Shown: piece after piece, positions 1,516 through 60,690 of the stretch
Numbering within the stretch: position 1 is the first letter of the stretch
Layout of the letters: every line of letters begins with the position of its first letter
Source of the DNA: Sisyra terminalis
Lineage: Eukaryota; Arthropoda; Insecta; Neuroptera; Sisyridae
Assembly (NCBI GenBank): GCA_958496175.1
Contig: OY292274.1
Span: forward strand, 10,995,689-11,059,688
Reading direction: 5' to 3'
DNA: 64,000 nt
Made by a program: the position numbers and the translations under genes
The notes under the pieces: generated by a model
What the model was told of the DNA's origin: nothing
What the model saw: only the letters and a program-made list of their open reading frames with translations
The model's database searches: none

Positions 1516-1595
1516 AGCCCTTGTCTTTTTAAATATATTAATTAAATTGTGGGCAATAAGGGCGTAGCTTCTTGTGGAACATTATTTATCTTATT

Positions 1596-1633
1596 GCCAA
1601 CGTTTCGTCGGTTATTTCTGACTTCTTCAGGGC
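1596..1633 (-). ncRNA. second hammerhead-like core, inverted partner
   Basis: Read on the minus strand: GCC, CTGAAGA, A, GTCAG, AAATAA, CCGAC, GAA, ACGT, T, GGC. One change (T to C) breaks the inner A-T pair of stem II. The other elements match the copy at 1886-1923. Confidence 0.5.
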
Positions 1634-1885
1634 TCTATAATGAAAATACATACCATTTAAAAAATAGCGACACATTATTGTCAAAATTATAAATAAATAA
1701 ATTGCAATTCACAAGTTTTAGTCGATAAGAATCTTAGTTAATTAATGTGAAATCTAACCAAAAAATAATTAAATTTCAATAATTTCGATAATATCGACTA
1801 AAACTTATGAATTGTAATTTATTTATTTATAATTTTGACAATAATGTGCCGCTATTTTTTAAATGTTATGTATTTTCTTTATAGA

Positions 1886-1923
1886 GCCCTGAAGAAGTCA
1901 GAAATAACTGACGAAACGTTGGC
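1886..1923 (+). ncRNA. hammerhead-ribozyme-like core in fold-back R1
   Basis: The parts in order are GCC, CTGAAGA, one extra A, GTCAG, loop AAATAA, CTGAC, GAA, ACGT, T, GGC. GTCAG and CTGAC form stem II. ACGT is self-complementary and would act as a loopless stem III (a dimer form). GCC and GGC form a short stem I flanking a UH cleavage site (U-U). The match to CUGANGA...GAAA is complete except for the extra A after the first core strand. The inverted partner at 1596-1633 on the minus strand keeps the same parts with one stem II mismatch. Activity is not shown by sequence alone. Confidence 0.6.
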
Positions 1924-1985
1924 GATAAAATAAATAATATTCCACAAGAAGCTTCGTCCTTATTGCCCACAATTTAATTATTATG

Positions 1986-3860
1986 TTTTGCACTGTGTCC
2001 TTGGTACAAATCAGTTAATAATAATTAATTTAAAAAGTTGCCAACAAAATTAAATTCGATTTTTAAAGGATATCATGAAAAATTAAAAAGAGACTCATTA
2101 AATATGCTGAACCATGTACATTTTTATATAGATTCTTGAATGATTGTGTCATTAAAAAATAAAATAAAAAAATTAAACGCCTCTAATTACTTACCATATT
2201 TGAATAAAAAAGAAAATATTTTAAAGGTTTTTTAAGAGATAAACTTTTGAGCCAGCGATCTTAAAACGCTTAAAAAATTAATCAATGCAGTGGCTTTGAA
2301 TAAATAGTCTCAATCGACTTTTTAGCAAAATACGTTAAGTAAAAACTCTGAAATTCTATAACAACTCGATTGCTTTGTAGTCTTACCGGAAAAAAATAGT
2401 CAAGGCGTAATCAATGCTGTTTTATTACAGCATAAAACGGCTTTTTTCACACAAAAAAATCACATGATTTTTTTTCTTGTATTGGTGAGACGTGGAAACA
2501 CGTCTACGACCAATGAATCGAGCTTACTTGAGGATTTCGACAATTACTGTTTGATAAAAACAAGTGTAATATTTCGTCGTTACGAAAAGGTTTTAAAGGT
2601 TTATTTATAACATCTAGACGTGTCTCGACATTGCAAGATTCTTTGAAAACGAATTGCGGAACATCCAAGTAGGAAGTTTATGTCTGTCTGTTGTATCTTT
2701 TTAAAAATTTTGCAACGCAAAACTTTCTGCTTGCATTTTGCATTGAATAAATAAATTTCTTTTCTATCAAACATGAATCAGAATGAGCAGTAAGTTTTAA
2801 TCAGCGGAAATACAATAAAAAAGGGATAAAATTTGTTTATTTTTACCTGCGGTTTCTCTAAATCTCCGCTCTTTATTATAATAATGAGATTTGCTTCGTG
2901 ATAATCAATGATAACACATTTATATATCGTTGGCTTTGAGTGTAAAATTGCTTTTTACACTTTATGCCTGCAGTTGTTTTTCTGATATCATTAGAAAGAA
3001 GAAAAAAACCTTACATGTACGACGATAAACAACTAAGTTGACATAAAAATACAAAATATGTTTTTTAACAAAACGTAGACCTGCTATCTTTTTTCAATTA
3101 AAATCTTAAAAGGAATAGCTGCTCTCTTCTTGTGAGTGCTATATGTGATCCTTCCATATATTTAATTATTTAAATAAGTAACAGAGTCTTAATTGTAACA
3201 AAAATAAAATTAAAACAATCAAAATTTAGAATGAACAAAAATTGAAATTATTTATTTTGGTGAATAGAGCTTAAATGGATTCGACAATGCCAATTTTGAT
3301 TCTGTCTATTACAGCAATAGTTGCACATTTCTTATAAATAAGCTATTATATCAGTAAACATGTCTATACAAAAACTTCTCCTTTAATATTCGATGATAAA
3401 GAAGTACAAACTTGAAGCTTGGTTCTATACGATACAGATACAGATGGTGATATATTTGAAGAATTACCAACAAATTTTACAAATCGAAAAAAGCGAGTGA
3501 TAGTATAGAAATTTAAGTGGTTTGCATTAAAAAGAAATAAAGCAGCAAGAGACAACGTATTATGGACGGAAAAAAGAAGATGATGCCTGGAATTAAGAAA
3601 ATCTTCAGCAGCCCTGTGTTATAAAAATCCAGGTGCAAACTTAGGATTATAAAATATTTGAAATGTACTTTTGTTAATGCAGACATACAACGAAAGATTT
3701 TTCAAGATTAATGGAAACTGATATATGGACAAAAAAAATTTTTTGTCCAAAATTTGGCTACCTGTTTACCAATTAAAAGAAATACTACACCGCAAAGTGA
3801 ATCAAGAAGGGCTCAAATTCTTTATTGCTAGTTAAAACTTAATGATTCACTGACAACAAT
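1986..3860. other. no gene seen; one short hairpin
   Basis: AT-rich DNA without a convincing reading frame on either strand. The only local structure noticed is a 7-bp perfect stem, AGACGTG...CACGTCT with a GAAA loop, at about 2489-2506. The 63-codon minus-strand frame at 3364-3555 has no motif. Confidence 0.5.
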
Positions 3861-7850: not shown

Positions 7851-8456
7851 AATATATACCCTCATCTGTTATTTATTAGTGATAAGAAATAAATGATAAA
7901 TAATATCCACATTAACACATTGCACAAAAGTTGCCTAGTTAAATCCTGATCGGATAGTGTTCAATCGTAAAATTCGTAATAATTATTTTTTGATCTACTT
8001 CCCACATTGGTTATTTAAAAAATCGTACACTTGTTAAGATAAAATATACAAAAGAATTTAAAACGAATAAGTTGCCTTTTTTTCCCTGCTAAACTATGGA
8101 GCTGTCAGGTATAAACAGGTAAGTTAACGTTGGTTATTTATATACCCCCATCAGTAATTTAATCATGTGATATGTCAAATGAAATCTTATTTTATTCCCA
8201 ATCTAGCTGCATTAGGTTATCTCATTAAAAACGTGGTCCTGTCCATGGTTGTCTAAATTGAAGTACTCATTTTTTAAGGGAAGTGGTAATAGTAATGATA
8301 ATTTAAATCTAAAGTTTAGGTAACCAAGGATTGAACCAACTTTTTAATGAGGCAACCTAATGCTGCTAGATTGGGAATACAATAAGCTTTCATTTGATAT
8401 ATTACATGATTAAATAACTGATGGGGGGTGTATAAACAACGAACGTTAACTTACCT

Positions 8457-8922
8457 CAAAATAAGATTTTTTCGCTGACTTTGAACAGTTATACTGTGTA
8501 TACAATATATAGAAAATATTGCGGTCCAATTTATGTAGTATATTAAGTATATTTATGTAGTATGTAGTAATTTAAAATAATAATATATAAAAATCATACC
8601 ATAAACATAAATTTGAACAGAAGTTCAAACAAAAATATTCGTGACGTATTGCCCAGATAAGTATTTAGATTGCCAAGCAACCTTTCACAGTGGTCATCAA
8701 GTAGTTTGGATCACTCCGTAACTGCTTTGTGAACCATCACAAAGTGATGACCACTGAGGAAGATTGCTTGGCAATCGAAATACGTATCTGGGCAATACAT
8801 CACGAATATTTTGGTTTGAACTTCTGTTCAAATTTATGTTTATGGTATGATTTTTATATATTATTATATTAAATTATACTACACAAATTGGACCGCAATA
8901 TATTCTATATATTTAATACACA
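8457..8922. mobile_element. Penelope-like element terminal repeat, copy 1
   Basis: Flanked by the direct repeat GTTAACTTACCT at 8445-8456 and 8923-8934. The insert is itself an inverted pair: TTGAACAGAAGTTCAAAC..., a TATTGCCCAGATA block and a GATTGCCAAGCAA block occur on both strands, with GTGATGACCACTG near the centre. No coding sequence remains. Assignment to PLE comes from its near identity to the termini at 28508-29194, which carry a GIY-YIG coding piece. Confidence 0.75.
8751..8791 (+). ncRNA. hammerhead-like core in PLE copy 1
   Basis: The order is CCA, CTGAGGA, extra A, GATTGC, loop TTG, GCAATC, GAA, ATACGTAT, C, TGG. Stem II has six perfect pairs. Stem III is the palindrome ATACGTAT. 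Stem I is CCA/TGG around a UC cleavage site. This matches established PLE hammerheads in having a tiny stem III. The opposite-strand partner near 8660-8700 has lost the GAAA strand. Confidence 0.65.
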
Positions 8923-9049
8923 GTTAACTTACCTGTTTATACCTGGAAGCTCCATAGTTTAGCAGGGAAAAAAACAGGCAAGTTATTCGTTTTAAATTCT
9001 TTTAGATTATATCCCAGAGTATCTATATAACATAATTTCTTCGTTTTTG

Positions 9050-10080
9050 AGCAACCACTGCTTCCAAATCAAAATGGACGATCAGTTATCAGAGGAAAAA
9101 CCTATCCACTCGAGGGTACCACATGGTTCATTATTGGGTCCAATCCTTTTCAATCTCTACGTTGCGAACTTTCCGTCACTAGACCACTGCATAACCTCAA
9201 TGTACGCGGTTGACATCGTCATCTTCAACCTGGACAAAGATCTTCAAAGGGTCGTTCAGAAAACCCAGCAGTCTATCAACCACCTATCTTCCTGGTTCAG
9301 TAGATGGAAAATTCTTATAAATCCATCTTAAAGCGTCACCAAAATTTTCTCTCTAACACGTTTCTCCAACCAACTGGGGCCTATCGTGCTGGGTTACATG
9401 GAAATTCCGTGGAGTGAGAAAAAAAACACCTGTTAAATATCTGGGCATACTTTTGGACTCGAAATTGACCTAGCAAAGCCATATTTCAAGTAAAATCAGA
9501 GAAACCAACAATCGACTCATCCAACTATACCCACTTATCAATAGAAGGTCTCGTCTAAGAATGGAATTTCCAATGATGATATATAAATCAGTCATTAGAC
9601 CACTTCTCACATATTTTTGCGCAGTTTGACTTCCATCCTCAAAGAAAAATCACAATGACCTACAGGTGTTCCAAAAAAGAGTTTTGAGAATCATCACTAA
9701 AGCTCCATGGTATGTGAGAAATAACCAAATTCATCACGAAATGAAGGTCCCATACATAAAAAACTTTCTAATCCAACTCATAAGGAATTTCTTTAACGGC
9801 CTAGAAAATTGTCCTAGTGCAGTAGAACTAGGACAGTAGATAGTAGAACAAAGAAGGCTGAAGCGGAAACTTCCTCAAGAGCTCCAAGAAATATCAGTTG
9901 CTTGACCACAAGATCAAGAACAATCAACAAATAAAAAAATAAAAAAGACAGAGGAATAAAGTTCGATTCCTCCAGCTTCTTAAACACCGCTAAAGATCAA
10001 TTGCCTGCCATCACCCTCATGATATAGCGATACATCGCTGAACTGGTGCAAATTACATAAAAGTCCACAAAAAAAAAAAT
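9050..10080 (+). pseudogene. jockey-like non-LTR retrotransposon, 3' half of ORF2 plus poly(A) tail
   Basis: The open stretch 9047-9331 reads FQIKMDDQLSEEKPI, then RVPHGSLLGPILFNLY (RT block 4, normally GVPQGS), then SMYAVDIVIF (RT block 5, normally YADD), then LSSWFSRWKILINPS. The catalytic YADD is YAVD here, so one metal-binding Asp is lost. After a stop the thumb region continues in changing frames (PVKYLGILLDSKL-like). It ends with LQVFQKRVLRIITKAPWYVR, then MKVPYIKNFLIQLIRNFF, the usual C-terminus of jockey ORF2. A 3' UTR follows and an A-run at about 10069-10079. It is truncated at the 5' end within RT, as is common for LINEs, and abuts fold-back F. Confidence 0.85.
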
Positions 10081-18128: not shown

Positions 18129-18845
18129 ATATATATATAAACGTTTATATTTCAAAGAGGCAATTTTTCAAAATTTAAAATTAATTTACTGTGCTTTTTA
18201 TCAGTTCAACTAAAAATATTAATACAGATAATTGTTTTACTTTTAGTTACCTTTCCAATGATATATAACTCGCCCGTCTAAAGTAAAAATTTTTTGTTTC
18301 ATCCCTAGGGAATACCTTTCTTTATTATTTTTAAGGAATAATAAGTAGCCTAACATATGGGGGAAATTGTGTTGTATCTTAGTACCAAATTTCATTAAAT
18401 TCAGTTGTTCCGTTCTTTACTTAAATCAAGTCACACAGACAGATAAAAATTTTAAAATTGGTAAATTTGGAATAAGTGTCTTTTGAAACAAATTTTTACC
18501 CTAAAATTGGGTTCAAAATTGAAATGTACAGACAGACGTAAGAATTTTATATATTTGCATAGATTTGAGAATTTATGTTGTAAACAACAAGCCCATCCAT
18601 CTCATTAATAATTTTAAGATTGTTAATCATCAATCGATGTTGAATAAATAGTTTGTAAATTTAAAAGTAGTGATTAATTTATTTTTTCACTAATCTAACC
18701 ACATTAAAGTGCATATCAATTGCATGCCGAACCCATATTGAATGCATTTGGACACGTAATCGGCCGTTGCAAACAAGACCATGGTGGTTATCCATTCTTT
18801 ATATGAATATTACCGAAACATTGTGGAGTAATTTTTAAATTTTGA

Positions 18846-18975
18846 GCCCTGAAGAAGTCAGGAATGACTGACGAAACGTTGGTGATAAAATAAATAATAT
18901 TCCACAAGAAGCTTCGTCCTTATTGCCCACAATTTAATTATTATATTTAAAAAGACAAGGATTTAAACAACATGG
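18846..18975 (+). repeat. half copy of repeat R1 with hammerhead-like core
   Basis: Matches the right arm of the 1543-1985 fold-back from GAGCCCTGAAGAAGTCAG to TTGCCCACAATTTAATTATT and then the AAAAAGACAAGG extension. The core at 18846-18883 has GCC, CTGAAGA, A, GTCAG, GAATGA, CTGAC, GAA, ACGT, T, GGT. Stem II is perfect, and stem I keeps two Watson-Crick pairs and a G-U pair. Confidence 0.65.
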
Positions 18976-20842: not shown

Positions 20843-22145
20843 AATTAGCCTTTTTCCTGGGCACATTAGAAAAAGATCCGCTTGGGGCAGTACCCGGGAG
20901 GGGGTACATATGTTTTGAATTCTCTATTGACAACAATATTAAACGTACGTTTTATTACTAGAAGAATAAATAAATATTGTGGTAAAAAAAAGTTAAAAAA
21001 TAAAAATTATCATGCCTTCTTAACAAATCTAGATGTTAACTGATTTTTATCATGGTTATCATTTAAATATTTACTTTTTTTTCGGAATAAAACTAATTAT
21101 TGATTTCTTCAGGTGTTTTCGTTTGGTAGGATAGCTAACAGTTAAAATATTGTCTGGATTATTGCCTAATTTTTGGCCTTTATTCCATTCTTTTAACTTT
21201 GATGTGCATGTGAGTGCATCATAACCGTAACGTATACTATAATCCTCAAGTTTGAAAAGTAAAGCAATAATATGAGGACAGTTCTTTGAAGAAGATGCTG
21301 GACACTGACACTGAGCATCTATAATTTTGCTACTATTCTTATCCAAAGCTATACTTATTTTATACTTTACAGTGACTCGGAAAAAAGATTGCATATCTGC
21401 TCTTAAGTAATATACCAAATGATTAGCATTATCTTCCAGATTTAACACAAAATCACTCAGACAATATTGTCTTCCTCTTTGAAGTGCTTTCGAGTTTCCA
21501 CAATTTGGAAGCTGTTCATCATCGTCTGATAAAGTTGCATTCAAATCTAAAGTATCAATAAGACCGATAGTGATATAATTATACATAATACCATAGCAAA
21601 AAGAACGGGGGATAGCTTGGGATGGAAAATTTGCCCAATTTGTAGTAGAAAAAGTGCAGGATTTTGAATTTGGTAGAGTTGTATTAAGTAATTTCATGCG
21701 TTGTTGTTTATCCGCTAAACATTTACCACCATAAATTCCAATGAAATTTTTTTTACCATTCCCATTTGCAATGCATTCTTCAATTTTATTTAAATAGATA
21801 AAGAAAAAAAACAACGACAAAATTAATTTAAAATTATAAAAATTTATGCAACACAATGGCAAATACGATACATTTACAAACCAACTAACCTTTCAACTAG
21901 GACATTTTTATTACCAGACATGGGTAAGCTACGACATGCAAGCCATCGTTTTAAGTCCCGGACAAGATGATCTTACACTTTTGCAAATTTTAATTTTGCC
22001 CCAGGTACATCATCTTCCGTTAATTCCATAATAATTTTAGATGTTTAACGTTGTTGTCAATAGAAAATTCAAAACACATGTACCCCCCACCGACGCTGCC
22101 TCTAGCGGATCTTTTTTTAATCTTCCCAGGAAAAAGGTTAATTGC
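20843..22145. mobile_element. inverted-repeat-flanked unit carrying a SAP/SWIM gene
   Basis: Arms of about 103 bp (20843-20945 and 22041-22145) are imperfect reverse complements. They share AATTA.CCTTTTTCCTGGG at the tips, AAAAAGATCCGCT, GGGGGTACAT.TGTTTTGAAT and CTATTGACAACAA. The gene at 21071-22029 fills nearly all of the interval. Terminal inverted repeats of this length around one gene suggest a DNA transposon or a captured gene. I could not identify a target-site duplication, and no second copy is in the window. Confidence 0.6.
21071..22029 (-). pseudogene. SAP- and SWIM-domain protein, two exons, one premature stop
   Basis: Exon 1 (22029-21882) starts MELTEDDVPGAKL. It reads DLKRWLACRSLPMSGNKNVL, then VERLV, a SAP-type DNA-binding helix pair. 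An intron of 104 nt (21881-21778) has donor GTTTGT and acceptor GAAG after a T-rich tract, and joins in phase to exon 2 (21777-21071). The whole reads as about 284 residues. Exon 2 carries CQCPASSSKNCPH at about residues 206-219, the CxC...CxH SWIM zinc finger, followed by CTSKLKEW and a basic tail (KRKHLKK, PKKK). In animals, SWIM proteins of this type often precede a YqaJ-type nuclease domain, which is absent here. Codon 19 (21973-21975) is TAA, so the copy as given cannot make the full protein from this start. Function in this copy is unknown; a mobile-element origin is inferred from the flanking inverted repeats. Confidence 0.65.
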
Positions 22146-28367: not shown

Positions 28368-28821
28368 TAGGGGAGACCGGGTAAAAAAGTAACAACTTGT
28401 ACTTTTACCTTTATTTCTGGCTGGGTGTTATTATTGCCATTAAATGAATATACCCAAATGGATATAAATTTAGTTTATGTTCTTCACAATAGAAACTTGA
28501 TTTATTAATATATAGAATATATTGCGGCCCAATTTATGTAGTATAATTTAATATAATAATACATAAAAATCATACCATAAACATAAATCTGAACAGAAGT
28601 TCAAACAAAAATATTTCGTGACGTATTTGCTTTGTGATGATTCACAAAATAATCACGGATTGACCTCAATTTATAAGTCGTGCCTTTCTCTTTTTGCGAT
28701 GTAGTTATGGAGGGGGGGGAGTATTCTCAAATTTCCTTACTTTCACCGAATCCTTCGTAAGCAACCCGAAAAGTGCCGAATTTTGAATTGGTCCATTTTC
28801 CCAGTTTATTACCTTTCCCTT

Positions 28822-29022
28822 TCATTTAACAATTTCTATGCTTTCGAGTGCATCCAATCGGTTTGTGCAGTGAACACTTTTTAGAAGTCTACTTTCTGCA
28901 AATGCATGCCCTGTTTTCAGTGCATGTTCTGCCACACATGATTTTTCCACTTTTGCATATTTTATGTTTGTCAAATGTTCCTTACTACTACTAGATGACC
29001 ACTGAAGAAGATTACTTGCCAA
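28822..29022 (-). pseudogene. GIY-YIG nuclease C-terminus of a Penelope-like element
   Basis: The frame begins with translated terminal repeat (MASNLLQWSSS), so its start is not real. From about residue 24 it reads VEKSCVAEHALKTGH, then AESRLLKSVHCTNRL, then ALESIEIVK and a stop. PLE proteins end with an endonuclease domain whose last blocks are [KT]S.[VL]AEH....GH and R...ES..I.K, and this fits well. The GIY and YIG strands and the whole reverse transcriptase are missing, as in a 5'-truncated insertion. It is not functional alone. Confidence 0.7.
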
Positions 29023-29036
29023 TCGAAATACGTCAC
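29002..29036 (+). ncRNA. decayed hammerhead-like core in PLE copy 2
   Basis: CCA, CTGAAGA, A, GATTAC, TTG, CCAATC, GAA, ATACGTC. The core strands are intact. The outer four pairs of stem II (GATT/AATC) hold, but the inner ones and half of stem III are lost. Confidence 0.45.
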
Positions 29037-30003
29037 GAATATTTTTTTTTGCACTTCTGTTCAGATTTATGTTTATGGTATGATTTTTATGTATTACTAA
29101 ACTAAATTATACTACATAAATTAGACCGCAATATGTCCTATATATTGTATACACAGTTTAACTGTTCAAAGTCGACGAAAAAATCTTATTTTGATTGATT
29201 TATTAAAGTATGGTGGGTTTTATATGAATACCATAGAGTTAAAATAAAATGTCAGTTGTTACTTTCGACCCGCCTACGTGGTCGAAAGTAACACGTTGTG
29301 GGTGGAAAGTAACAAGACTGCTAATGGTTGCTAATGAAAATATAGTACAAGTTAAATCAACAAATTACTTATTGAAAGACTTTATATTAATGATACATAC
29401 CAAATTCAGCATTTGAAAAACTCAAAAAATATATATTTTAAGGAAATGAATTAATAGAATGCCGCAACAACGCATAAGAACTACTGCATGAAGAATAACC
29501 GACACGGAAATGTATTGAAAACCATTCTATTGAAGTAGATGTCTATAAAAATATGATGTTAATAATAAAATCATTACGAAGACAAAAGTAACATATAACT
29601 TTTGTACCCTAGGAGGCTATGTTACTTTTGTACCCATTCTCATATTTAATAAAACATGTAACATAACCTTAAAACGGAACGTGCTAGACAAAAATGAATT
29701 TAAACAATGTACAATTTATCTAATCAAGAATGGATATGCAAACATTCGAATTACTATGATTCTTTTACGATTATGTAAACAATAAATAAGAAAACGTCGA
29801 AAAACTTACTTTTGGCTCATTAAAACACATTACGACCTATTATATAACCTAAAAACGCACTGCGCACGCGTCGACTTAATGCAATTGAGGAGGGTGCTCT
29901 CTGCTATCACCTGATGGCAGCAAAGCGGAATTCGCTCATTGGATAAGCCTAGAAAGCATTTGTTACTTTCGACCCGCCGTTGTTTTATACCCAGTCTCCC
30001 CTA

Positions 30004-32050
30004 TTAAAAAAATGAACGGCTACTTGTAGCAATTTTTATCATTTTGGCAGTAATCGTCAATAAATATTTATATTTGGGATGGGTATTTGTGGGAAATTTC
30101 ATAGAAGAGGTTTAGATATATGATTGATGAAGCTATTTGTTTTATCGTTGTCATTATTCGTTGTCAGTTTGATCGAAGGTAGAAAGGTAAAATTTTTCCC
30201 AGGGTAGAAGACCAAGGTGGTGCTATTCTACTAAGATGTCTTTTAGTCTTGTTTTTGTTATGAAGAGTCTCAAGAATCCAGGTAAGTAGGTGAGGTTTTT
30301 ACAATCTTTAAACATATTTCAAAAGAAAAAAAAATCTTAACAATCAAAAAGTTTATATGCGTGGTTAGTAAATGCAAATATAATATTTTAAATGAATTCA
30401 AAAACAATAAATATTAGAGAAATACCAATAATATTTGGGCTCTTTCTTGAATTAGTTCGATTGGATGGATACATTTTTCCCATACACAATTTAATTGAAA
30501 CCAACACTGTTGGCACTAAAATTCCTGATTATTAGAATTTCTCAGTATTTCATTTGATTTAATGAAAAAAATGGTCTCTTAATTAGTTAAGCACTACTTA
30601 AATTGTTACTTGGATCACATTTTGGCTTTTATTCAAATAAAGTTAATAAATTAAGTTCCAAAAAAAAAAAGTATAAATAAGTCAACCGATGGCTTAATAT
30701 TCGATGACAGCACATAAGCTTCAATGTTAAGGATTATTAGCCAATATGATTGCAAGATTTAAATATATTCGTATATTTTTATTGTTAAAATTTTGAAAAT
30801 TTATCAAAGCTACTTCCATTGTAAATATCATATACAGTGTACATATTCCGGTCTATAACAAAAATTAATTTTAAGAGTGTAAGTAGTTTTTATGGTACTT
30901 TTTTACTATGTAGTATTTTCTTATAAAGGCTAAAAAAATCAGATCTTTTAAAAGTAAATAAAACATAAAAAAATAGAACACAACCAGAGCATAAGTATTG
31001 TTAAAGAAATACTTCTTATAAAAAAAAATCAATGATTGAATTTGCATTTTTACCAAAATTTGCCGCTTACAATACCATCAACGTATATGATATTCATTTT
31101 GGCATCTTCATTTCTTTCTTTTCCCAATTCATACATTGTTGAATTACCAGAACTCGTTGGAGCAAATCGTTCTTAAAAATTCCTTTGATTTTTATAAGCT
31201 GTTTTAATTTGATTTCACGTTCTAAATAATGTTTTATTTGCATCCACAAATTTCACCGTGGTTGAAATTGAAGGATATTATATTTATTGAACTGCATTCT
31301 GCAAACGTTTACATTTTATGTAGCCTTACATCATAAAATTTAAATTATTTTCACGAGGTCACAGAAAAAAAATACACTTTGGTAGAGACTTTCAAGGCAC
31401 CCATTTACCACAATGATGGTAATGTTTTTCTAATCCAGCTGTCTATTTCTGGAACAATTACGTTTTACTAAGAATTAAAACTGGATGCACTAATGCATAT
31501 TATATATAAGTGGTTGCAATCTGAGGTCTTAAATTTGCAGTGGTTATTTAATTATCTTCTGTCGTTCTATTGAACAGCTGGACCGGTGTGGACTAATTGT
31601 GTAATTCGAGTAGATAGACCAATATTTTTACCTCGTCCACGAAGACGTGGCATGTTTCTATATATGTAATTTATAGTTTATTTTGTGATAAAGTATACAG
31701 AAACACTTAACGTCAAAACATCAACATGGAATTTATTAAAATAATACGATTTCTTTTCTTTACTTCAATCAACTGTAGTATCGTAATACTGATTAGGATT
31801 AGGTGGGTAGTTTGATAAAATTAATTTTCAGATTAATGTTCATTTTTAATTGAAATGTAAACAGATAATGAAGCTCCAAAAGCACATGTGCAATCATTGA
31901 TTGTGTTAAATAGAACTCAGGGACTTGTTGAAATTAATTAATTTGAATGCATTTTCATTTTTATTGATTAAACGCTGTGAGATTTTAATTTTTAATTGAC
32001 AAATAAAAAAAAACGTAATAAGATAAAACTTCAGCAACAAGATTAAATCA
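30004..32050. other. candidate intron sequence; one Helitron-like scrap
   Basis: Mostly AT-rich with nothing supportable. The exception, at 31572-31655 on the minus strand, is listed separately. Confidence 0.4.
31572..31655 (-). pseudogene. possible N-terminus of a Helitron-type protein
   Basis: The minus strand reads MPRLRGRGKNIGLSTRITQL, then VHTGPAVQ and a stop. Insect Helitron proteins frequently open MPR.RGR.IGR.TR. The piece is short and nothing recognisable follows. Confidence 0.3.
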
Positions 32051-32629
32051 AAGGGTCTAGCAGGATCCACATAGCGATTTGGCCCCCAAATAGGAACCTA
32101 TGTCAAAACTTATGTTAAAATATCGGCGTGATATACAAACACATTTTATATACTTTTCGCGACCAAATTTCTCTTTGACCTTGACATATGGGCAAAAATG
32201 TCCCCCCGCATAGCTATTTTAAAAAGTTATATATCTCAAAAACTAATTAAGCTAGAGAAGTGAAACCAACGCAAGGCTTTAGATTATTTTACAGGGTATA
32301 TCATAACTATTTTTGAAATTTTTTGTTTTTTTTTTTTGTATATTTTTTTTTCTAAAAATTTCGAAAAAATATATTATATACTCTGTAAAATAATCTAAAG
32401 CTTCGCGTTGGTTTCATTTCTCTAGCTTAATTAGTTTTTGAGATATATTGCTTTGAAAAATAGCCATGCGGGGGGACATTTTTGCCCGTATCTCAAGGTG
32501 AAAGAGGAATTTGGTCGCGAAAAGTATATGAAATGTGTTTGTATATCAAGCCGATATTTTAACATAAGTTTCGACATAGGGTCCTATTTGGGGGCCAAAT
32601 CGCCATGTGGATCCTGCTAGACCCTTTTT
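32050..32629. mobile_element. fold-back element C, copy 2 (0.58 kb, core deleted)
   Basis: The ends AAAGGGTCTAGCAGGATCC and GGATCCTGCTAGACCCTTT match perfectly as inverted repeats. The whole unit is two arms back to back, without the 450-bp core or the inner A/T-run arms of copies 1 and 3. The 60-codon frame at 32438-32620 is just the translated arm; the same frame recurs at 51426-51608. Confidence 0.8.
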
Positions 32630-34383: not shown

Positions 34384-34973
34384 AGAATATGTGTAATAGA
34401 CTGATTCAAAAAAAATTAGGAATTTTTTTTTCTTAATTATATCGAAAATATTGTTGGGAATGACCAAACAAAAAATTCTGTACAAGTTTAAGCTATTAAT
34501 ATTAATATTAAGAGGTGCCGCATCGCAAATTTCGATTTTCCATTTAAAGAACATGGGAACAATATTCTCTTGCACTTTGGAATTTTATAGCTCACGTTGG
34601 TGACAAAATTTCGGAATGACCAAGGTATATTCTTGTAGAAAATTGAACGATCTACAAAAAAGGTATCTAACAACAAGTTTATGATATATTTATTCCTTCA
34701 AAAGTTTAGTCGTTCAATTTTCTACAAGAATATACCTTGGTCATTCCGAAATATTGTCACAAACGTGAGCTTTAAAATTCCAAAGTGCAAGAGAATATTG
34801 TTCCCATGTTATTTAAATGGAAAATCGAAATTTGCGATGCGGCACCTCTTAATATTAATATTAAGAGCTTAAAATTTCACAGGATTTTTTTTTGTCATTC
34901 CCAACAATATTTTCGATATAACTAGAAAAAAAAATTCATAATTTTTTTTAATCTGTCTTAATTGTGCAATATG
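34384..34973. repeat. fold-back element B, copy 1 (0.59 kb)
   Basis: Arms share ATATCGAAAATATTGTTGGG, AAGAGGTGCCGCATCGCAAA, TTTCGATTTTCCATTTAAA, CAATATTCTCTTGCACTTT and GGTATATTCTTGTAGAAAAT. Frames 34369-34575, 34488-34676 and 34681-34872 are the arms translated on opposite strands, which is why they look alike. The long inner arm of copy 2 is absent. Confidence 0.8.
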
Positions 34974-44695: not shown

Positions 44696-45878
44696 TTTCT
44701 TGTTAAATAATAATTTCACAGCAATATTAATTTAAGATAGCGACTGTAAATATGTGGATATAAGACATTAAAAAAAAATGAGGAATTTTTATTTCTTAAT
44801 TATATCGAAAATATTGTTGTGAATGACAAAAAAAATCCTGTGAAAGTGCAAGCTCTTAATTTTAAGAGGTGCCGCATCGCAAATTTCAATTTTCCATTCA
44901 AATAACATGGAAACAATATTCTCTTGCACTTTGTAATTTTATAACTCACGTTGGTGACAATATTTCGGAATGACTAAGGTTTATTCTTGTAGAAAATTAG
45001 ATTTTAAAAAAAACGTGGTCTTATAAGTTTTTGATATATTTATTCGTTCAAAAGTTATTCGAGGTCAAAATTGAACGAAAGAGAAATTTTAATATTTTTT
45101 CAATTTTTTGACGCAACCATCAATTTTAAGAGAAAATTTTATAGGACATTTTTTGTAGAGCACTTATTTTTCTAAAACTTAGCTCTATAAAAGTTTTTGA
45201 TATTTTTCACAGGTCCTAAGTTATTTGCATTAAACTGAAAATATTCGTAATTTTATTGTTTTAAATTAATAATATTTCCTGAATTATTATATGTTTAACA
45301 TAAAAATTATTTTTTTTATTTTAATTAAATAACTTAGGACCTATGAAAAATATCAAAAACTTTTATAGATATAAGTTATAGAAAAATATAGAAAAAAAAA
45401 GTTCTCTACAAAAAATGTTGATAAAATTTTCTCATAAAATTGATGGATGCGTCAAAAAATTGAAAAAATAATAAAATTTCTCTTTAGTTCAACTTTAACC
45501 TTGAATAACTTTTGAAGGAATAAATATATCAAAAACTTGTACGACCACCTTTTTTGTAGATCGTTCAGTTTTCTACAAGAATATACCTTAGTCATTCCGA
45601 AATATTGTCACCAACGTGAGCTATAAAATTCCAAAGTGCAAGAGAATATTGTTTCCATGTTATTTAAATGGAAAATCGAAATTTGCGACGCGGCACCTCT
45701 TAATATTAATATTAAGAGCTTAAACTTTCTTAGGATTTTCTTTGTCATTCCCAACAATATTTTTGATATAATTAAGAAAAAAAACAATCTATTTTTTTTT
45801 GAATCAGTCCAATATTCACATATTAACAGTCGCTATCTTAAATTAACATTGCTGTGAAATTATTGTTTTACCAAGAAA
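44696..45878. repeat. fold-back element B, copy 2 (full length, 1.18 kb)
   Basis: A nearly complete palindrome from TTTCTTGTTAAATAATAATT at the left to AATTATTGTTTTACCAAGAA at the right. It includes GATAGCGACTGT/ACAGTCGCTATC near the ends, the GTGCCGC block, and an inner arm ending in TTACGAATATTTTCAG-type and AATAACTTAGGACCT-type blocks. The centre is about 45290. The 73-codon frame at 45636-45857 is a translated arm. Confidence 0.8.
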
Positions 45879-48741: not shown

Positions 48742-48753
48742 TAATCTTAGCTC

Positions 48754-49204
48754 AAAACAAGATTTTTTCGCTGACTTTGAACAGTTAAACTGTGTATACA
48801 ATATATAGAATACTATATATTGCGGTCCAATTTATGTAGTATAATTTAATATAATAATGAATTCAAATCTAACCATAAACATAAAATTGAACAGAAGTTC
48901 AAACAAAAATATTCATGACGTATTGCCCAGATACGTATTTCGATTGCCAAGCAATCTTCTTCAGTGGTCATGAAGTAGTTTGGATCACTCCCTAACTGCT
49001 TTGTGATGATTCACGATTCACGTGAATCATCACTTGATGACCACTGAGAAAGATTGCTTAGCAATCGAAATACGTATCTGGGCAATACGTCACGAATATT
49101 TATGTTTGAACTTCTGTTCAAATTTATGTTTATGGTATGATTTTTATATTTTATTGTATTAAATTTTACTAAATAAATTGGATCGAAATATATTGTATAC
49201 ACAG
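48754..49204. mobile_element. Penelope-like element terminal repeat, copy 3
   Basis: A 451-bp insertion with the 12-bp direct repeat TAATCTTAGCTC at 48742-48753 and 49205-49216. The two halves are inverted copies of the terminal repeat meeting at TCACGATTCACGTGAATCAT. No coding sequence remains. The minus-strand frame at 49011-49202 is translated repeat. Confidence 0.8.
48927..48967 (-). ncRNA. best-preserved hammerhead-like core of the PLE family
   Basis: Minus strand: CCA, CTGAAGA, A, GATTGC, TTG, GCAATC, GAA, ATACGTAT, C, TGG. All stems and core strands are intact, with the same extra A as all the other copies. The partner at 49041-49081 on the plus strand has one core change (CTGAGAA) and keeps the stems. 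Confidence 0.65.
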
Positions 49205-49494
49205 TAATCTTAGCTCCTTTTCTTGAATGTATTTGAACTTATCATGTGAAACAAGGATCTATTCTGCGTAAGTTCTTTAAAGGAAAGCTCGTATTACTTC
49301 TCGTTTCTAGTAACATAAATATATTGATAAGTTAAAAATAGAATTCTCACCCATTGTTATCACTGTTTTTTGTTATTTTAAAGCAGAAATATTAGATGAG
49401 TTATTGAAAGTTATGATTTAAAATTTTAAGCCTTCATTTGCAAATTTTGTACTACACGAACGTCCGGGTAGAAATTTATTTCAGGATTTAAATT

Positions 49495-51418: not shown

Positions 51419-53319
51419 AAAGGGTCTAGCAAGATCCACATGGCGAGTTCGCCCCCAAATAGGAACCTATGTCGAAACTTATGTTAAAATATCGGCTTGA
51501 GATACAAACACATTTTATATACTTTTCGCGACCAAATTTCTCTTTGACCTTGAGATATGAGCAAAAATGTCCCCCCGCATGGCTATTTTTCAAAGTTATA
51601 TATCTCAAAAACTAATCAAGCTAGAGAAGTGAAAACAACGTGAGGCTTTAGACTATTTTACAGAGTATATCATATAATTTTTTTTATGTGTTCTCTGAAA
51701 ATGATAATCACGAAAAAAAATGTATTCTATACTTCTACATGAGTATTATAACTCATAAAAATGCGTGAAAAAATAGTTGGTGCAACACCTTGAAAACAAA
51801 TGAAATGTGATTTACGCCTAATAGTATACCTCGGTTTTATTTTTTTTCGAAGTGTTGCACCAACTTTTTTTTTCACAAAATTTCTCTAAAAAATAGGCCA
51901 CATATAGAAGCAAAACATATATTATTTTCATAATTGTAAGTCTAAGGAAAAATAAAATAAATTTTATTAGTTTATTTGTTTTTTTATATTTACTCTTAAG
52001 ATAATTAATTTCAAGAGTCAAAATAATTGATCCCAAAAGAAAAAAAAACAACTAGTGTTTAATTTTTATTAAAATAAGAATAAAAAAAAAATTATCGTCA
52101 CTGCTATAATTTATTACAACTGGAATATTATGAACCTTAAATAATTTAGTTAGTATTTCATAGGACGCAGAATTCTGGATAATTATTGTTCATATGAAAT
52201 ATAACAAATAAAAGCTGTTGCATGAGAACAATATCCCACTGCAAAGTTTTGATTGGAGAATCACATGAATAACGGAAAATACTGTTGCAATCTTTACCAT
52301 GCGAAATATAATCATTGTTAATATGACCGTCTTTGCTATTTATACAAATGTCTTGATTTTACTTCTACCCCAATGATGTTAGATGCTTATTTTACACATT
52401 GTTTTAAAATATTATTTGATTGTTCATTTATTCGCCCACTTTAGGTAGAACCTGTAAAAATTTTGGTATGAGCCAGTGAATAATATCCTAAGCTAAACGA
52501 AGAAAACCAAGTAATTCAGATGCCGTCAATAGCTACCCAGAATTAATTGGAGACGCATAGTATTCCAGTTGTAATAAATTATAACAGTGACAATTTTTTT
52601 TTATTCTTATTTTAATAAAAATTGAATACTAGTTGTTTTTTTTTCATTTGGGGTCAATTATTTTGATCTTGAAAGTAATCATTTTTAGAGTAAATATAGA
52701 AAAACAAAAAAACTAATAAACAAATTTTTTATGTTTCCTTAGACTTAAAATTATAAAAAAAAAATATGTTTTGCTCCTATATGTGACCTATATTTTATTG
52801 AAGTTTTTTTAAAAAAATTGTGCAATACTTCGAAAAAAAATAAAACCGAGGTATACTATAAGGCGTAAAATATGTCATTTTTTTTCTAGGTGTTGCACCA
52901 ACTATTTTTTCACGCAATTTTTATGAGTTATAGTGCTCATGTAGATGCATAAAATATATTTTTTTCGTGATTGTAATTTTCAGAGAACACATTAAAAAAA
53001 ATTATTTAATTTATTTTTTGGGTTATTATTGTAAAATTTTTTTTCTAAAAATTTCAAAAATAATTATGATATACTCTGTAAAATAATCTAAAGACTCGCG
53101 TTGTTTTCACTTCGCTAGATTAATTAGTTTTTTAGATATATAACTTTGAAAAATAGCCATGCCGGGGGACATTTTTGCTCATATCTCAAGGTCAAAGAGG
53201 AATTTGGTCGCGAAAAGTATATAAAATGTGTTTGTATATCAAGCCGATATTTTTACATAAGTTTCGACATAGGTTCCTATTTGGGGGTCAACTCGCCATA
53301 TGAATCCTGGTAAACCCTT
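51419..53319. mobile_element. fold-back element C, copy 3 (full length, 1.9 kb)
   Basis: Left end AAAGGGTCTAGCAAGATCC; right end GAATCCTGGTAAACCCTT (slightly diverged). The arms are about 650-700 bp, with the same block order as copy 1. The core at 52120-52600 shares with copy 1 CATATGAAA.ATAACAAAT, TTGGAGAATCACATGAATAA, CCATGCGAAATATAATCATT and GCCGTCAATA. The conserved core is the only part that is not self-complementary. Confidence 0.8.
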
Positions 53320-58713: not shown

Positions 58714-59024
58714 ATATTCACATGTGTGTGATTACATTCTATGTTCTTTGTGTTTGCCGCTATACATACATTTGCCTATTATATTGACAATAAAAGTAAA
58801 AATTGTGTTGAAAATTGTATTATATTTTAGATATCACAAACTACTAATAATGAATGTCCCATTTCAGGAACTACCGGAATACACTATGGCAGTAGATTAA
58901 AAGCATTTTTTTAATTACAACAAATAATTATAACATATACATTATTTTCAGATCTCAATTAGTATTAATAAAATATCATTTTGAAGTTTAAAGAATCAAT
59001 TTTAATTTATTATCTTTCAATTCA

Positions 59025-59059
59025 GCAACGTTTCGTCACGTATCGTAACTTCCTCAAGC
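59025..59059 (-). ncRNA. hammerhead-like core, fourth sequence type
   Basis: Minus strand: GC, TTGAGGA, A, GTTACG, ATA, CGTGAC, GAA, ACGT, T, GC. Stem II has six pairs (one G-U). Stem III is ACGT. The first core base is T instead of C. The surrounding DNA is not obviously related to the other carriers. Confidence 0.4.
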
Positions 59060-59100
59060 GTTTAATAAATAAACATACATAAACATATAAAAGATAATAC

Positions 59101-59888
59101 AATAGACTGATTCAAAAGAAATTATGATTTTTTTTCCTTAATTATATCGAAAATATTGTTGGGAATGACAAAAAAAAATCCTGTGAAAGTTTAAGCTCGT
59201 AATATTAAGAGGTGCCGCATCGCAAATTTCGATTTTCTATTTAAATAACATGGGAACAATATTCTCTTGCACTTTGGAATTTTATACCTCACGTTGGTGA
59301 CAATATTTCGGAATGATCAAGGTATATTCTTGTAGAAAATTGAACGATCTACAAAAAAGGTGGTCGTACAAGTTTTTGATATATTTATTCCTTCAAAAGT
59401 TATTCGAGGCCAAAGTTGAACTAAAGAGTAATTTTAATATTTTTTTCAATTTCTAAACGCAACCATCAATTTTATGAGAAAATTTTATAGGACATTTTTT
59501 GTGGAACACTTTTTTTTCTATAACTTATCTCTATAAAAGTTTTTGATATTTTTTACAGGTTCTAAGAATTAAAAAAAATATTTTATGTTAAAAATATAAT
59601 AAAACAGGGAATATTATTAATTTAAAACAATAAAATTACATTGATAAGTATTTTATTTATTTCCGAGTCACAATAAATTATACAATATACAATATGGATG
59701 ACAGTCAAAAACTGTTGAAACGCGTCGTAATAAAGAAGAAATTGAGTCCCATGAGACATATATTATTATCCATTAATAAAATTACGAATATTTTCAGTTT
59801 AATGCAAATAACTTAAAACCTGTGAAAAATATCAAAAACTTTTAAAGAGATAAGTTATAGAAAAAAAGTGCTCTACAAAAAATGTCTA
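59101..59888. repeat. fold-back element B, copy 3, with a 136-bp insertion
   Basis: The left arm is nearly full (ATAGACTGATTCAAAAGAAA inward through the GTGCCGC and TAGAAAATTGAACGATC blocks). The right arm is truncated after CTCTACAAAAAATGTC. The palindrome centre is interrupted by a short insertion flanked by an 11-bp duplication (see 59641-59776). Confidence 0.75.
59641..59776 (+). mobile_element. small insertion with 11-bp target duplication and hammerhead-like motif
   Basis: AATAAAATTAC occurs just left and again at the right end of a ~136-bp segment that is absent from fold-back B copy 2. Inside, at 59696-59726, the parts are GGATGA, CAGT, CAAAA, ACTG, TT, GAA, ACGCGT, C. This gives a four-pair stem II, a GAAA strand and a palindromic ACGCGT as stem III. 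The first core strand is imperfect (TGGATGA for CTGATGA). Probably a fragment of another PLE-type terminal repeat. Confidence 0.5.
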
Positions 59889-60690
59889 AAAAACCTGTGT
59901 ATGGTAACAGGTTACTATTGTTACTATTGAAAATTTAAATTACACTATATTTTGGTGTATTAAAATTTACTTTTCAAACTTATATTTTTTTATATGTGAC
60001 GAAAAGTTGCAGAATTGAAAAAAAAAATTAATCCATCAAATCTGAAATTGTTATTTTATTAATAAGTATAACTTTTCACGTGCGTACATTTGTACATTAC
60101 CGTTTTTTAATTAGATTATCAACTACTAATTTTTTAGAAATGTTTTTTGATTGATACGTGGTTGACGTTGGTTTGTTCGAATTTTTTATGTATTTTAAAT
60201 ATTTTTAAAAGGAAATATTCAAAAGCCTTTGTGAATTCAAGGTCATAATAATAACATTACTCGTTTGTTTTAGATTTAATGTTATACGACATTTATTATT
60301 AAAAATAAGCCCACGCTCCATTTACTGGATGCATACGGAGAATAAAATATACTCATATTCTTTATAACCATATGAGAAGCAGGTTGCCAGACATTAACTA
60401 TAAGGAATGATCATGGTTTTTAAAATTCCGTGAAGAGCTTATAGAGCTCTTTGTGATCCAAAGTACTGAATTCAAGTGGGAATTTGCATCAAGTCTTCAA
60501 GTGTGTGTGAATGTATGTGTTGGCTTCGTGACCTTTTCATCAAGAAAAATACTGTGTCATCGAGTTACAAACTTAGCTCAACTTCCGACTTGTACAAGAA
60601 CATAATCCATTGTTATTGCGAAAATCTAATAAATGCTTTTTTTGTTTTATCACATACTTGAATGAGTTTCAAGACAAACTTGGTTTGATG
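59889..60690. other. no gene seen
   Basis: AT-rich. The 61-codon frame at 60476-60661 is not supported. Confidence 0.35.

Follow-up and report, generated by a model that had tools for sequence, protein, structure and literature searches.

Three families of small repeats (A, B and C) in the window, the 64,000-nucleotide stretch of DNA analysed here, were found to carry hammerhead-like motifs. These elements are probably decayed copies of Penelope-like elements, mainly pseudo-LTRs placed head to head and containing the known minimal type I hammerhead, a reading to which we give a probability of roughly 0.87. They belong to a known kind: tiny ribozymes of this sort have been described before in Penelope elements. 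In five of the elements (A1, A2, A3, B1 and C) two arms face each other head to head as an inverted pair, and B2 is a single arm. Each insertion of family A has one tail and is flanked by a 12-bp target-site duplication, as listed here.

48754..49204, unstranded: insertion A3, a head-to-head inverted pseudo-LTR pair
48927..48967, minus strand: A3-left hammerhead, complete (stem I CCA/TGG, CTGAAGA, extra A, 6-bp stem II, GAA, palindrome ATACGTAT, H17=C)
49041..49081, plus strand: A3-right hammerhead remnant, the mirror partner; it retains stem II and the palindrome but has a broken core (CTGAGAA)
48754..48789, minus strand: A3 tail, 36 nt, left arm only
48742..48753, second copy 49205-49216, unstranded: A3 target-site duplication, 12 bp
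8457..8922, unstranded: insertion A1, an inverted pseudo-LTR pair
8751..8791, plus strand: A1-right hammerhead, complete
8653..8693, minus strand: A1-left hammerhead remnant, with a broken core (CTGTGAA, TAA) and a stem II that still pairs, one pair being G-T
8457-8493: A1 tail, 37 nt, left arm only
8445-8456 and 8923-8934: A1 target-site duplication, 12 bp
28509..29194, unstranded: insertion A2, an inverted pair; left arm ends about 12 nt before the usual inner end
28999..29033, plus strand: A2-right hammerhead remnant; it keeps the core but has lost the cleavage site, the 3' side of stem I and part of the stem II pairing
29157-29194: A2 tail, 38 nt, right arm only
28497-28508 and 29195-29206: A2 target-site duplication, 12 bp

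Pseudo-LTRs, inverted or in tandem, with an optional tail of 30-40 bp on one of them are a Penelope feature; inverted ones with one tail were found in all three family-A insertions (tails of 37, 38 and 36 nt in A1, A2 and A3). On the tailed arm, which is the left one in A1 and A3 and the right one in A2, ACACAG is followed by another 36-38 nt. The opposite arm, which has no tail, finishes at ACACAG in A1 and A3 and about 12 nt before it in A2. A target-site duplication, a further Penelope feature, is 12 bp long in A1, A2 and A3, and the identical flanking 12-mers are GTTAACTTACCT, TTGATTTATTAA and TAATCTTAGCTC. As a control, 30-nt stretches drawn at random from the window were compared in pairs and had a 12-mer in common in 0.035% of trials. 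An exact search located a third copy of the 12-mer flanking A2 elsewhere in the window.

The hammerhead segment is absent from A2-left, and A2-right is damaged. The initial annotation had counted 29002-29036 as a hammerhead; the 5' core is intact there, but 2 of the 6 stem II pairs are broken and the sequence that lies between two TACGT repeats in other family-A arms is absent, which removes the UH site and the 3' strand of stem I. As a separate observation, an ATG is found just upstream of the A hammerhead (e.g., 8747-8872, plus strand). The frame that it opens over the motif has 41 codons in A1-right, A3-left and A3-right, 36 in A2-right and 10 in A1-left.

The elements of families B and C were delimited as follows.

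1519..1993, unstranded, outer ends approximate: insertion B1, an inverted pair with arms 1531-1727 and 1792-1988 (93%)
1886..1923, plus strand: B1-right hammerhead, complete (GCC/GGC, CTGAAGA, extra A, 5-bp stem II, GAA, ACGT, H17=T)
1596..1633, minus strand: B1-left hammerhead, core intact with one stem II mispair
18844..18960, plus strand: solo arm B2, with a complete hammerhead at 18846-18883 and B tail sequence at 18946-18960
58963..60064, unstranded: old inverted pair C, whose pieces are 76-85% complementary and which encloses a different repeat family
59025..59059, minus strand: C-left degenerate hammerhead, C3 changed to U
59992-60025: C-right partner arm, keeping only the 3' half of the motif

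The extra end sequence of B1 (1519-1533 in part) is partly shared with B2, is present on the left arm only and is shorter than the A tails. No convincing target-site duplication was found for B1, B2 or C; a 9-mer shared at the ends of C is part of its inverted ends.

To count the motif, both strands of the 64-kb window were scanned by script for CTGANGA, 0-2 extra bases, a stem II of at least 4 bp and GAAA. Five exact cores were obtained, starting at 1889 (+), 8754 (+), 18849 (+), 29002 (+) and 48964 (-). They are present only in families A and B and are absent from the other foldback repeats of the window. All but the core at 29002 continue into an in-register palindromic stem III and a 3-bp stem I on a UH site. 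When the window was simulated 400 times with an order-3 Markov model, the core alone was obtained with a mean count of 0.12 (maximum 2), the core plus palindrome with a mean of 0.0125 (maximum 1), and the core with both palindrome and 3-bp stem I 0 times. Because the simulations rarely produce the core and never the whole arrangement, the motif is not explained by chance. When two core mismatches were allowed, the window gave 15 matches compared to a simulated mean of 4.4 and a maximum of 11 in 60 runs.

These counts bear on several sites named in the initial annotation. Those at 1886-1923 (+), its partner 1596-1633 (-), 18846-18883 (+), 8751-8791 (+) and 48927-48967 (-) were as described, barring a G-U pair at the end of stem I in B2 and the mispair in B1-left. 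The claim that stem I closes on a UH site in the better copies also held, as it does so for 4 of the 5 exact cores and in none of the 400 simulations. At 59025-59059, the hammerhead is degenerate, with C3 changed to U. The site 59696-59726 was rejected as a hammerhead: it reads GGATGA..., has no core and lies outside the 15 matches obtained at the looseness of two mismatches. With its loss, the at least four sequence types proposed come down to three. New in the present analysis are the mirror partners at 8653-8693 (-) and 49041-49081 (+), the architecture of inverted pairs, tails and duplications, and an endonuclease-like fragment described below.

Nine arms retain the motif region, five from family A, three from family B and one from family C. 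Base pairs were counted on rows placed by hand, as MAFFT misaligned the short motifs. The hammerhead consensus consists of the core CUGANGA and GAA with the A15.1-U16.1 pair and H17, and all of these are present in five of the nine arms (A1-right, A3-left, B1-right, B1-left and B2). Stem III of Penelope hammerheads is reportedly reduced to a palindrome. The motifs of A1-right, A3-left, B1-right and B2 are complete, with three stems around the core, the third being a palindrome that is paired only between two copies. The remaining cores are defective: A2-right has neither U16.1 nor H17, C has the change of C3 to U, and the cores of A1-left and A3-right are broken. Family A has ATACGTAT as its palindrome and C as H17; in families B and C the palindrome is ACGT and H17 is T.

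The two strands of stem II read GATTGC/GCAATC in family A, GTCAG/CTGAC in family B and GTTAC/GTGAC in family C. All three families begin it with a G-C pair, and the other 4 of the 5 shared pairs differ on both sides between at least two families with pairing kept, a comparison that covers three families on hand-placed rows. The annotated difference of stem II between types with conserved pairing was thus seen across A, B and C. The same families had been called unrelated, which agrees with the lack of any mutual blastn match at E 1e-4. They do, however, have the inverted-pair architecture in common and share the pattern CTGANGA-A-G...C-GAAA, with one core change in C. Because of this shared architecture and core pattern, the families more likely go back to a common ancestor and have conserved the structure than owe their likeness to structure without shared descent.

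The stock Rfam hammerhead models gave no match, either at the gathering score or at E up to 10, in the whole window and in two 91-base stretches. Scores were at background, and the covariance check suggested along with the initial annotation came out negative in this form. These models describe hammerheads with a closed stem III, and the negative result is therefore not fatal to the ribozyme reading. Viral, plasmid, bacterial and archaeal records were the external DNA collections searched, and no relative was found in them. Among the best 25 listed of the 115 stretches scored by DNA pattern in viral contigs, none had stems II and I that reach 4 bp and 3 bp, respectively, nor did any of 46 stretches in genome contigs. 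The plasmid collection gave no match.

The negative Rfam search could also mean that there was never a ribozyme, and that we are dealing with DNA transposons of the foldback or MITE type, in which the hammerhead likeness arose by chance or capture. Such transposons would account for the near-perfect long inverted repeats with short spacers, and many foldback repeats are found in the same window (47 inverted pairs of at least 40 nt). However, complete motifs in two families and a degenerate one in a third stand against 0 of 400 simulations, stem pairing is kept through different sequences, and the insertions of family A lack symmetry, each having a single tail and a 12-bp target-site duplication. 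A MITE origin was rejected on these three grounds, and we consider it very unlikely.

Another possible explanation is that the elements derive from animal non-LTR retrozymes, small tandem repeats that spread as circular RNA and that would here have been inverted later. Like the window elements, retrozymes have type I hammerheads and are small, with short units and a low G+C content (PMC7229834). However, retrozymes are direct tandem repeats, and the word "inverted" appears 0 times in that paper, whereas the window holds inverted pairs with a minimal stem III. No direct tandem arrays of a 150-450 bp unit with one hammerhead each were found at these sites, and A2 contains the endonuclease-like fragment. 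This origin was likewise rejected; its probability is slight.

The Penelope reading agrees closely with what has been published. According to one account, minimal type I hammerheads without stem III are in some cases located in Penelope pseudo-LTRs, possibly cleave in dimeric form, and have a role in vivo that is a mystery (PMC7761336). Another states that all available Penelope sequences have minimal hammerhead motifs (PMC6155905). The window motifs resemble the minimal and variant Penelope hammerheads of Cervera and de la Pena (2014) and Lunse, Weinberg and Breaker (2017), as these are described in papers that cite them, in their type I order, short stems I and II, and location in pseudo-LTRs. 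The extra A of the window arms (9 of 9) is a possible difference.

Penelope elements of Adineta vaga also have inverted pseudo-LTRs, an optional 31-bp tail on one of them and palindromes at the junctions (PMC3846280). Their target-site duplications are given as 8-10 bp, with none in some copies, compared to 12 bp in family A. Unlike the Adineta copies, the window pairs have no ORF, or only a fragment of one, between the arms. Hammerheads are mentioned 0 times in that paper. In the PAc element of Anolis carolinensis, a hammerhead lies at the junction of pseudo-LTR and ORF as well, and its tail of 30-40 bp, similar to the window tails, is the stretch between two start sites of reverse transcription (PMC11167929). 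The PAc protein is active in vitro and the PAc hammerhead cleaves only with the protein (PMC11167929), whereas the window appears to hold dead copies only.

The initial annotation had pointed to Penelope elements with a short stem III that act as dimers. This idea fits, and it is strengthened by the anatomy of the elements, with tails, duplications and inverted pairs. Under the Penelope reading, a live parent would have produced an RNA of tandem copies, in which two direct hammerheads could pair through the self-complementary stem III. Each half of such a dimer would then cleave after its UH site, AUC in A and GUU in B. Insertion would have placed the pseudo-LTRs head to head, with at most an ORF fragment to separate them. 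The window copies would be insertion products whose own transcript contains a motif and its complement and would not dimerise in cis.

Folding was computed for seven isolated motifs with their flanks. B1-right and C fold alone with hammerhead stems I and II, with two further outer pairs in B1-right. A3-left folds with stem II and without stem I, A2-right forms 4 bp of stem II, and B1-left, B2 and A1-right prefer other folds. The computed hammerhead dimer of family A (-17.7 kcal/mol) is far better than two monomers at -4.5 each, while that of family B (-16.7 kcal/mol) is slightly worse than two monomers at -9.2 each. For the four motifs compared as two strands, the best duplex was never the hammerhead dimer, which was 3.1-8.8 kcal/mol worse in energies that leave out tertiary contacts. 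The predicted energies support dimer pairing through stem III only in part. The full-length RNAs of the inverted pairs A1, A3 and B1, in either orientation, were predicted to form long hairpins of -228 to -281 kcal/mol. Since one motif of such a pair complements the other and the RNA is predicted to fold back into a single hairpin, the inverted copies should be inactive in cis.

The mechanism of Penelope transposition has been called little known, and both target strands were cut and extended in vitro by a lizard element (PMC11167929). Exactly one arm is tailed in each of the four inverted pairs with ends clear enough to assess (A1, A2, A3 and B1). A tentative model, which we think more likely wrong than right, is two-ended target-primed reverse transcription, in which a staggered cut of about 12 nt would be followed by synthesis of one cDNA per strand, one from the outer and one from the inner of two start sites, leaving one tail; the same model includes an extra A fixed in the core of this lineage. 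Priming from both target strands, one per start site, would directly give one tail per pair. Self-priming at a palindrome is a published alternative for head-to-head pairs (PMC3846280), and the four inverted pairs cannot decide between the two. Mutations shared between arms were uninformative as a test of a single template for both. Among the six family-A arms there were five splits into two states, each resting on one site, and a single one of them joins both arms of an insertion (A2); arm identity within A3 (86.8%) and within A2 (84.7%) is no higher than between different insertions. If short inverted pairs proved to be nearly always one-tailed genome-wide, two-strand priming would be favoured over palindrome self-priming from sequence alone.

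The initial annotation had also noted an extra A common to its types. One extra A is present between A9 and the first pair of stem II in all nine arms with the region, across the three families. Usual hammerheads have no insertion between A9 and stem II, although its absence does not define them. No paper was found in our literature search that states an extra A after A9 in Penelope hammerheads. Insertions known in natural hammerhead cores lie after A6, at position 13 and near C3, and none after A9 is named in the text, figures aside, of PMC3088659. The extra A at the base of stem II is one possible variant feature of these hammerheads. If it is general and the ribozyme is active, the accepted hammerhead core would be extended, and this might be part of the reason that standard models fail to detect the window motifs.

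Penelope-like elements have an ORF for a telomerase-like reverse transcriptase and a GIY-YIG endonuclease, and traces of such coding sequence were also sought. A minus-strand frame at 28825-29106 lies inside A2, next to a pseudo-LTR, and its end (28825..29010, minus strand) bears what we take to be a resemblance to the C-terminus of the Penelope GIY-YIG endonuclease. No relative of this fragment was found in Pfam, PDB, the protein database or viral contigs. A regular-expression scan found no reverse-transcriptase motif of the YXDD type. The only Pfam match to a reverse transcriptase in the window (8996-9328) is in an RVT_1 fragment at 8996-9331 (+), which starts 74 bases to the right of A1.

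The window is A+T-rich, with 26-31% G+C in 4-kb steps, and has seven open frames of at least 110 aa; with its many inverted repeats, it has a eukaryotic look. A frame of 273 aa with a SWIM zinc finger (21071-21892, minus strand) has four relatives, the best of which is 86% identical. Long inverted repeats without the exact core were seen at 32050-32627 and 51420-53319 (arms of 274 nt and 264 nt, 92%). A family of foldback repeats is present at 34395-34965, 44767-45809 and 59099-59893, mostly 87-93% identical with one piece at 78%, and the last of these copies is the one nested inside inverted pair C.
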